DNA of 64,000 nucleotides from Protonemura montana. Its lineage: Eukaryota; Arthropoda; Insecta; Plecoptera; Nemouridae. The position numbers were made by a program, and so were the translations under genes. The stretch lies in NCBI GenBank assembly GCA_947568835.1, contig OX387602.1, positions 6,542,570 through 6,606,569 of the forward strand, read 5' to 3'. This document shows positions 28,427 through 49,400 of the stretch, in pieces. The notes below the pieces were generated by a model. That model was not told the origin of the DNA. It searched no databases and worked only from the letters and a program-made list of their open reading frames with translations. Each line of letters opens with the position of its first letter. Position 1 is the first letter of the stretch.

Positions 28427-28937
28427 ATCACCGACAAATAAAGTACGGCATGGACACTGTCACATTACGGGCGGGCTAGAAATAGGGTTACTGCTACCTT
28501 TTTCTCACGCATTCTTGTCTCTCACCGTCGCCATGTTCACGAGAGCAGAGCACAAATTATTATGACGTATCAAATCAACTATCAAAACAACAAGGAAAAC
28601 AGCAGGCTGGCTGATTGTGGGACAGAGCGGACGAAAGCGCAGCATGCGGTATCTCTCGGGGATTCATGGTACTCTGTCGACCAACGCGCGAATGTCATGA
28701 ACATATGAACTTGATTAAACATGATATTTTCGGAACAAAAATGTTAAATGAAAAAATAATATTCGCAGTGCGAGGAAACCCTTTTAATGCGAAAACTTAA
28801 GTAATTATAAATACACTGAAAAGTCTCGCCTCAAATCTTTCAAATAGAAAAATCTTCAAATCAGAAATCCAGAAGAAAAGTCACACCTTCTGATATTATC
28901 TTTCTGCACTGGATGACTCTTTGATTCAAAGTCTTTG
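28427..28937 (-). promoter_or_regulatory. Short spacer: PKG copy B 3' flank and Mondo 5' UTR/promoter
   Basis: Only about 510 bases separate the PKG-B stop from the Mondo start on the same strand. The right part (from about 28790) resembles 39500-39620 downstream of copy A: CTCAAATC(T/G)TTCAAATA and ATCTTCAAATCA-like blocks are shared. The duplication therefore includes the 3' UTR. Confidence 0.5.
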
Positions 28938-46479: not shown

Positions 46480-49400
46480 TTATGGATGTGCGGCGGGTGT
46501 GCCTTCCTCCGAGGCCCGAAGCATCGTGGAGAAGATACCCATGGACCGGTTCAGCAATTGGCTGGGTTTCCCATCCTCAACCACTCTCCCGGCGTCCAGG
46601 ACTATGATTCTGTCGCAATCCAGGATCGTCGGCAAGCGGTGCTGTAACATACATGACAGTGGCGTGAAACTTTTACCAGCGTTTCGAAACTAGGGCTTCC
46701 AGGGAGATGCCCCACATTTATAATGTTTGAACAGAATTGTGTGATACATTCCGAGACTGTCTTTCTTATCGTGACACATTTGATTATGGTTAATTCAGAT
46801 CCACCAATTTAGATGGGAATGGTTCAGAATTGATAAGGATTATTCGGCCATGCTGAGCGTGATTTCTGACAGAATGAACAGTGTCTGGTGTAACTGTCCC
46901 CCTAAATCAATTAAATGTACGGATTAGAATTTCTTTCACTGACCAACCCGCGAAATGAATAGTAAAGCTTCATGAAAAAAGCTTCTTACATGAAGCATGA
47001 AAAAAGCTTGTCATGAAGCTTCTTCAAGCTGCGTATCATGTAGCTTATTTTCATTGACTTTGCGATCTAGGTTTTCTTGATTGGAGCACATTGACCCATC
47101 TACAACACTTCCCTGCCAAACACGGTCTATCTCGCAATGCGAGGACAAAAACTCGCCATCGTTGTTCGGAAAGGAATGTGTACACATTGATAAAACTCTC
47201 CTCGACCAGATTAACTTTGATGTCATTGCATCTTTGGCGATTATCATACTTGTGTCGTGATAACCCGTCCTACGTCAGCTATCGATGCAATCTGCTATCA
47301 GGTAGAGATTCATCGTAATTAAACATCGTAGCCAAACATGTAGCAAATATCGCGTTTGGCTGCCAATTTGACCCGAATTTCATTGAAGAGCTACAGTAGC
47401 CATCCTTATCAGTAGACATTACCTGGCTTTAAAAAGGTGTTTTATAAAATTTCTCACTTGGTTACCACTTTAACAGGGGGTGACTACGAGGGGGACTTCG
47501 TGAACAAAATAACATGCAAGGTCTTTACCACTTTGAACGTCATGTCACTGTCAAAGAGAACCTTCATTGGCAAAGAGTGGCGAACTACAAGCTTGCCGTC
47601 ATGCTTCACCCAGGACTACGGTTCAAAATTCTACTGTACTACCAGAGTGTGGTGTTTGCTCTCACCGCTATTGTAATGACGGTGCGCGCAGAAAAGGCCC
47701 TCGTGGCAGCCGCTAGCAACGCTTTCTCGGTGGCGGGGTCAATGGAAGATGTCGCCTCGTCCATCACCAGGCAGGCCGCTTCGTGCAGGATGGCCCTCGC
47801 GAGACAAAACAGCTGCTTCTGGCCGGCGCTCAGGTTTTCGCCACCTTCGCGAACCTCGCCGTCTTTCCACATGCAAATCATGGTTCAAAAGTAAAGACGT
47901 TGGAGGTGGGCGGGGGACATATCATCATTGATGTAAATTCAATTTAGCTCTTTTTGCAAGGGGTGCCATTTCTATCATGCTCAATAGGCAATGGACTTGT
48001 CATGGTTTTTCTTTAAATACGGGTTGGACAAAATTCATGGAATTAGGAAGGATTACTGCACTGCTAGAATCGTATTTGCCTAAGTTCGTGGTTCAGTCTG
48101 CAATAAACTGTCCATCGCACAGTACCTTGGACTGAAAATTTCTTAAATTGCGTGTGAAATATCGATATATCTACAATAATACAGATCACTATAAAACATT
48201 CTTGGTGGTTCAGGCGGTTACATTTCACATCATGTTAGTTTTATCTCAGAATATTTCCATCTGAAGTCCTTACCCAATCCTCCGGGATATTTTCTGACAA
48301 TATCCTTTAGTTGAGCCAATTCCAGACTCTTCCATAGTTTCTCGTCGGAGTACTGTGCCTTCGGGTCGAGATTACTCCTGGAATGTTAAATCACGAAACA
48401 CGAGCCAAATCAAAATGTGCCTCCATCAATCATCTCTTATCAATCAACCAACTGGAGATCAAATCAAACCCTAAGCTTCACCAAAACTACTGAACCAGCT
48501 AGGCAGCAAGTGACGAGACATTGTTTGCTCATTTGCTTCAGAGCAATTTCAAATTAAATTTGATCTGATTATAGGGATTAAAGCAAGAGTACTGTTTGTT
48601 CCACAATACATAAGCTGACATTTTGCTTGATCGATCAGCGTGGCCAAGCGTTGAACACGCAAAGAATTCGCTTAAAATTAGACGTGATAAAATCACATTT
48701 TTCCATTGGACCGTTTCCTAATCAATCTGAGCTATCTCGACAGAAGTTAAAACAATAGAGCAAGCTGGCGTCAGTGGCCCAGCCGTTTTGGGTGCCATTA
48801 CGTACTTTCCAACGGGCCAAAGTCATCACAGTGGCAGCTCGTTCTCTTTCACGAATGCGATTTGTAGGAAGATCATAAAGTGTAAAATATGTGTATGTTC
48901 CTGTGTACTGTAAAACCCCCGTCGTGCCTATCACCCAAAACGAATAAGATTTGGCATGTCAAAATAAAAATCTATTAATTGAATTGGTTATCATTCCACT
49001 TGAAGCCACTTCTGTTCGGGAAACATAACGTAGGCATGTAGGCATGCTGTTCTAGGTGTAATAATCTTCAGAAGGAATGTCTCAGTAGTGTTAATCAACA
49101 GCAGTAGGCCTCTTTTCATCATAAAACTAATACAAGCCGCCAATGACAAAAACAAAACATTTTGACGGTATTTTTTCCTATAGTACATTTTTTACCACAA
49201 ATTATACAATAACCAAACCCCTCAAGAGGCTGCATACACTTTCGAGCCTTTAAATAATTTTTAATGAATATCTGAACCTATTTGATCCAATAGAAGTGAG
49301 CATTTTTTTATTGATAACGGGACATGCCTAGTCGTCCTAGTCGTCCTAGATTAAGTCAAACATTTCAAAACTGATACTATTCGCTCTGTGCTCAGCTCAA

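Follow-up and report, generated by a model that had tools for sequence, protein, structure and literature searches.

A tandem pair of PKG-type kinase genes beside a SUR-type transporter gene in Protonemura montana, with a decayed transporter exon at the unit edge and uneven silent divergence

Two similar kinase genes lie one behind the other in a 64,000-nucleotide stretch of the plecopteran Protonemura montana (contig OX387602.1 of assembly GCA_947568835.1, forward-strand positions 6,542,570 to 6,606,569; hereafter the window), which raises the question of how the pair arose and whether its origin can be dated from the traces left in the DNA. An earlier reading of the letters by themselves (the sequence-only reading) had proposed two kinase genes head-to-tail with 11 exons of the same length, and our gene models agree: K1 and K2 are two intact PKG-type kinase genes in head-to-tail order, both on the minus strand, with open frames and canonical splice sites.

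45869-39787, minus strand: K1, the SUR-proximal PKG-type kinase gene; 13 coding exons, 717 aa
45869-45765, 45147-44864, 44639-44497, 44389-44252, 43899-43730, 43536-43434, 42764-42626, minus strand: K1 exons 1-7
42194-42088, 41889-41438, 41064-40901, 40384-40199, 40105-40039, 39882-39787, minus strand: K1 exons 8-13
37535-28938, minus strand: K2, the distal PKG-type kinase gene; 12 coding exons, 645 aa
37535-37363, 37153-37011, 36903-36766, 36323-36154, 35466-35364, 34854-34716, minus strand: K2 exons 1-6
33826-33720, 33359-32908, 30134-29971, 29491-29306, 29229-29163, 29033-28938, minus strand: K2 exons 7-12

From K1 exon 3 onward, all 11 compared exon pairs are equal in length (143, 138, 170, 103, 139, 107, 452, 164, 186, 67 and 96 bases), and 508 of the 587 residues encoded by them agree. 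The 5' ends differ, K1 having one extra exon and 72 extra residues. The first exon of K2 (37363-37535, minus strand) resembles K1 exons 1 and 2 (44864-45869) fused without the linker and intron, so that either K2 underwent an in-frame deletion or K1 gained the extra sequence.

Both predicted proteins have the PKG layout, in which an AGC kinase domain follows two tandem cNMP-binding domains. Pfam reports Pkinase at 218.9 bits in K1 and 214.1 bits in K2, with two cNMP_binding stretches in each, and the best PDB match of K2 is human PKG1 beta, full-length (E 8.6e-186). The two cyclic-nucleotide-binding domains, the AGC kinase domain and the tail recall human PRKG1 and Drosophila foraging, Pkg21D and CG4839, as do the glycine loop (GVGGFGRV), the RDLKPEN and DFGFAK catalytic motifs and the C-terminus GWDKDF. 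With the lysine of FALK, the catalytic residues of an active kinase are present in both copies, from which we infer that both have kept kinase function. By eye, we saw no leucine zipper (the means of forming dimers) in the N-terminal stretches of the two models, which may miss upstream exons. Passages of two papers count three PKGs in Drosophila (PMC4595086, PMC8846931). Besides K1 and K2, the P. montana genome holds a PKG on contig C15, with which K1 shares 55.5% identity in the nucleotide sites and 61.9% in the kinase domain, and a foraging-like gene on C1, with 49.5% (nucleotide sites, 95 positions) and 56.0% (kinase). A genome search with K1 gave no third copy of the K1/K2 lineage, the next relatives being about 55-62% identical at the protein level, and K1 and K2 are more derived than the C15 PKG and the foraging-like gene. 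Given these other PKGs, the label 'Pkg21D-like' in the sequence-only reading is not supported.

A SUR-type transporter gene lies upstream of K1, and a series of segments around the two kinase genes can be matched between the copies.

46642-63532, minus strand: remaining SUR-type gene, as far as followed; individual exons compared, no exon models
46641-46480, minus strand: intact last exon of the SUR-type ABCC transporter gene; matches the C-terminal ends of ABC transporters in PDB
45870-46045, minus strand: 5' block of K1 (5' UTR/promoter region); 132/168 to 37720-37536
39258-39673, minus strand: 3' flank of K1, with a homologous counterpart at K2; clear core, by eye, ~39600-39490
38462-38411, minus strand: stop-containing remnant of the SUR last exon; 41/52 bases to 46606-46555
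37536-37720, minus strand: 5' block of K2; 132/168 to the K1 block
28515-28937, minus strand: 3' flank of K2; clear core, by eye, ~28870-28760

The transporter resembles the sulfonylurea receptors (SUR, ABCC8/ABCC9) in a comparison of exons alone: SUR2/SUR1 are the best PDB matches of the nucleotide-binding exons 49413-49709 and 56472-56846, and Pfam finds ABC_tran in three of the five SUR-region stretches submitted. Unlike those receptors, its N-terminal stretch (62993-63532) matched nothing in the PDB at E 0.1. An intact SUR last exon at 46480-46641 upstream of K1 had been part of the sequence-only reading, and both the reading of that exon and the SUR1/SUR2 matches of the two other exons uphold it.

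The order is the same in both copies and on the same strand: SUR last exon (a remnant before K2), 5' block, kinase gene, 3' flank. That a matching 5' block precedes each gene, as had been claimed, is borne out by an alignment that none of 500 shuffles equals. The 3' flanks give a local alignment of 255/383 with a score of 327, reached by none of 500 shuffles (maximum 275). Neither the spacer between remnant and 5' block (117 of 500 shuffles reach its score) nor the DNA upstream of the remnant (302 of 500 as good) aligns above shuffles; with nothing aligning upstream of the remnant, one unit edge falls within the SUR exon or very close to it. The other, judged by eye on the alignment, lies near 39490 in K1 and 28760 in K2. 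A partial copy of the neighbouring gene is present at the inner edge only, the mark of a tandem-duplication breakpoint. A single unit of some 7 kb was duplicated. It begins inside the final SUR exon and stops shortly after the kinase 3' end, and the flank and remnant alignments support the proposal that the unit ran from the kinase 3' UTR into the last SUR exon. Among the papers listed in searches of the open-access literature, none deals with this gene pair or with a PKG gene next to a SUR gene in an insect.

The remnant had been placed at about 38383-38490, with the expectation that it would align with 46480-46641 above background. It does so over 38462-38411, with a local score of 49 against a maximum of 35 in 1000 dinucleotide shuffles, none of which reaches it; the frame reads IVLDAGRAEEDGKS and then a stop. 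Could the match be fortuitous, or stem from some other ABC gene and have nothing to do with the duplication? The match spans only 52 bases of a motif common to ABC transporters, and a genome-wide DNA search with the remnant returned only itself and did not tie it to the intact SUR exon, which leaves the local collinear comparison as the basis for identifying it. Within that comparison, however, the pairing is the best match in the window for 38300-38600 and stands in the correct order and strand ahead of the 5' block. The next best genome relative of the intact exon peptide is only 43% identical (among the 22 matches listed), which makes another source unlikely. We regard a remnant unrelated to this duplication as highly improbable.

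It had also been claimed that some insertions occur in one copy only, and three repeats do sit within K2; a further one lies in the junction.

~30430-32660, plus strand: Penelope-like element, within K2, in the intron that separates the exons paired with K1 exons 9 and 10
~34093-34366, minus strand: 5S-rRNA-type SINE, in an intron of K2 and missing from K1; a repeat family in the window
36474-36551: short repeat insertion in K2
38804-39138, strand not assigned: young SINE-like repeat of ~335 bases at the junction between K1 and the SUR remnant

The Penelope-like element has at least 118 matching pieces genome-wide (40 of 4935 first-look candidates scored), and its GIY-YIG domain scores 21.7 bits, just below the Pfam cut-off of 22.6. 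Among the same 40 scored candidates, copies often lie near contig ends (C5:9610, C2:150191, C12:132912, C13:143107, C1:33017262 and C15:12835905; for comparison, C1 ends at 33,122,741 bases and C15 at 12,967,500 bases), and several have identical scores, as if they lay in shared subtelomeric blocks. The SINE family has a 5S-rRNA-like head, with relatives at ~14271-14575, 19944-20224, 34093-34366 and 55910-56281; the member at 56210-56304 (minus strand) matches Rfam RF00001 (5S rRNA) at 52.8 bits, against a gathering threshold of 38. ARAGORN with bacterial settings found no tRNA. For the repeat at 38804-39138 the genome yields 45 matching pieces including itself; many copies are 95-99% identical, so that this family has been recently active.

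The sequence-only reading held that the remnant exon gives a breakpoint from which the event can be dated, and pointed to synonymous divergence of the exon pairs as a check. The unit edge itself is real, but the check gives no single value: for K1 exons 3 to 13 and their partners dS is 0.11, 0.27, 0.23, 0.80, 1.17, 0.66, 0.34, 0.26, 0.96, 2.16 and 0.80. Pooled, exons 3-5 and 9-10 stand at 0.26 and exons 6-8 and 11-13 at 0.95, about 3.6-fold apart. The heterogeneity of silent differences over all eleven exons (X2 47.0) is matched by none of 20000 permutations (maximum 45.8). Silent third positions at unchanged residues differ at 43 of 305 in the low group and 72 of 180 in the high group (Fisher 2.7e-10), a two-group test in which the groups were picked after seeing the data, so that the all-exon X2 test is the unbiased one. 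At most 27 silent sites in a row are unchanged, a run length that 1170 of 20000 permutations reach and that is not significant for conversion. With dN/dS of 0.17 in the low group and 0.12 in the high group, both copies are, by this measure, under purifying selection. The exon clock is thus patchy, and the remnant offers only 52 alignable bases with one side under coding constraint. An age from the all-exon pooled dS of 0.465 was rejected owing to the heterogeneity among exons.

We consider the following history probable as a whole. A single PKG-type kinase gene would have lain downstream of a SUR-type ABC transporter gene in the ancestor, and a tandem duplication of ~7 kb, from the transporter last exon to past the kinase 3' end, would have produced the order SUR, K1, truncated SUR exon, K2. 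The truncated exon would then have decayed while the complete SUR gene remained intact, and K1 and K2 would have diverged as two genes under purifying selection. Later interlocus gene conversion may have homogenised exons 3-5, which encode nucleotide site A, and exons 9-10, which encode the kinase core; exons 6-8 (site B) and 11-13 (C-lobe and tail) would have escaped it and kept the older divergence. The candidate tracts, judged from two copies within one species, are as follows.

44252-44639, minus strand: putative conversion tract 1, K1 exon 3, intron and exon 4; K2 partner 37153-36766; dS 0.11 and 0.27
43730-43899, minus strand: putative conversion tract 2, K1 exon 5; partner 36323-36154; dS 0.23
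41438-41904, minus strand: putative conversion tract(s) 3, K1 exon 9 and acceptor; exon partner 33359-32908; dS 0.34
40901-41064, minus strand: putative conversion tract 4, K1 exon 10; partner 30134-29971; dS 0.26

Tract 1 is identical at 343 of 388 positions without a gap, and its intron, of equal length in the two copies, aligns end to end (87/107). Among the other nine shared introns, four have no blastn hit at E 0.01 and five have pieces of 14-58 bases, mostly at splice ends; we used these pieces since whole-intron global alignment is mixed as evidence (z 1.9 to 29.4). Such alignment keeps some similarity in the introns after exons 8 and 11, in or next to the high-dS blocks (z 8.4 each), which weakens the contrast with the tract-1 intron. 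Beyond 15 bases outside exon 5, identity in tract 2 drops to 4/15 and 6/15. Exon 9 is a mosaic, with 4, 5, 13, 1, 1, 10, 1 and 6 differences per 56 bases, and its acceptor flank matches at 15/15 and then 12/15.

The same unevenness would arise with no conversion at all if the silent sites of exons 3-5 and 9-10 were merely slow, held by splicing signals, codon use or RNA structure, in which case the high exons give the age. The low-dS stretches do mostly coincide with exons, most tracts stopping near exon edges as exon-level constraint would also produce, and exons 3-5 have a high GC3 in K1 and K2 alike (0.72-0.83). Yet exons 7 and 11, with GC3 of 0.63-0.80, have dS of about 1, and conservation extends to the intron that separates exons 3 and 4. 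Slow sites should also be nearer to other PKGs, and the low exons are not: at third positions, low versus high group, the differences from the C15 PKG are 110/199 versus 52/96 for K1 and 107/184 versus 50/87 for K2, and those from the foraging-like gene 70/132 versus 39/75 and 73/126 versus 43/72. This favours conversion over silent-site constraint, although the comparison is near saturation (~55% of third positions) and could hide a moderate difference in constraint. Constraint as the whole explanation seems to us unlikely. Blocks of differing age inside one gene pair could also come from more than one duplication, or from unequal crossover between older copies, making K1 or K2 a chimera of paralogues of different ages. 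The low-high-low-high alternation would then require several exchanges, and the genome search with K1 gave no third copy of the lineage; we think such a chimera quite unlikely.

Interlocus gene conversion is thus the most likely cause of the uneven dS, as far as two aligned copies can indicate. Section 2.2 of PMC3924837 describes how conversion makes duplicates look younger than their true age, and the concerted evolution of tandem duplicates treated in that source, with some segments low and others high in divergence, differs in no way in kind from what we see; the decayed edge exon and the domain-wise alternation are the features of this pair. Duplicates are routinely dated by average dS, and here that average misleads: if conversion best explains the low-dS exons, the mean of 0.465 understates the age, which should be read from the high group (dS ~0.95 or more) and not from that mean or from the remnant. 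The decayed edge exon is an independent sign of one shared unit.

The nucleotide-binding sites may matter more than the question of dating. In both K1 and K2 the cassette motif is RMAS in site A and RQAT in site B, so that the Thr that selects cGMP is missing from both sites, replaced by Met in A and Gln in B. Human PKG1 and the C15 PKG, by contrast, keep it in both (RTAT/RTAS and RTAN/RTAS), as does the foraging-like gene in site A (RTAT), the only site that this comparison covered. K1 has, in each of its two sites, the Glu and Arg that hold the cyclic ribose-phosphate, and so does K2 in site A; site B of K2 keeps the Arg but is alone in having His in place of the ribose-binding Glu. The site-B residue aligned with what we take to be Arg297 of human PKG is Gly in both copies. 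Site B falls in exons 6-8, within the putatively unconverted part.

For PKG1, PMC3080414 describes Thr193, which sits at the end of the phosphate-binding cassette, as a link between phosphate and guanine; with Ala or Val in its place, half-activation took 27- to 29-fold more cGMP. The ribose 2'-OH is held by Glu183. Judged by these residues, a weaker or altered ligand choice is likely in K1 and K2, changed further in K2. A passage of PMC10959531 on trypanosome PKA indicates that such domains can switch ligand, but through residues other than those altered here. More tentatively, we put forward that K1 and K2 may form a PKG-derived lineage that has lost its selectivity for cGMP (perhaps gated by cAMP or a different ligand, perhaps constitutive), in which K2 would have been changed further by loss of the site-B ribose Glu and conversion would have kept site A and the catalytic core alike. 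If true, the pair would give a single kinase core two outputs with different gating, the conversion tracts setting the boundary between what is shared and what is private. If the nucleotide sites have changed as their residues suggest, the pair would be a natural experiment in which a PKG loses cGMP gating with its core still under selection (dN/dS 0.12-0.17).

Elsewhere in the genome, a 4338-base stretch of contig C4 around COX1 (C4:5760925-5762262) matches C34, the presumed mitochondrial contig, at 99.84% identity; either mitochondrial DNA was recently copied into the nucleus or the assembly is wrong there. Elsewhere in the window, by inspection, 7575-8102 (minus strand) is presumably an S6-kinase-like exon, and we take 85-537 and 10457-11128 (both plus strand) to be genes for an NDUFB11-like protein and an RPA-interacting-protein-like ORF.
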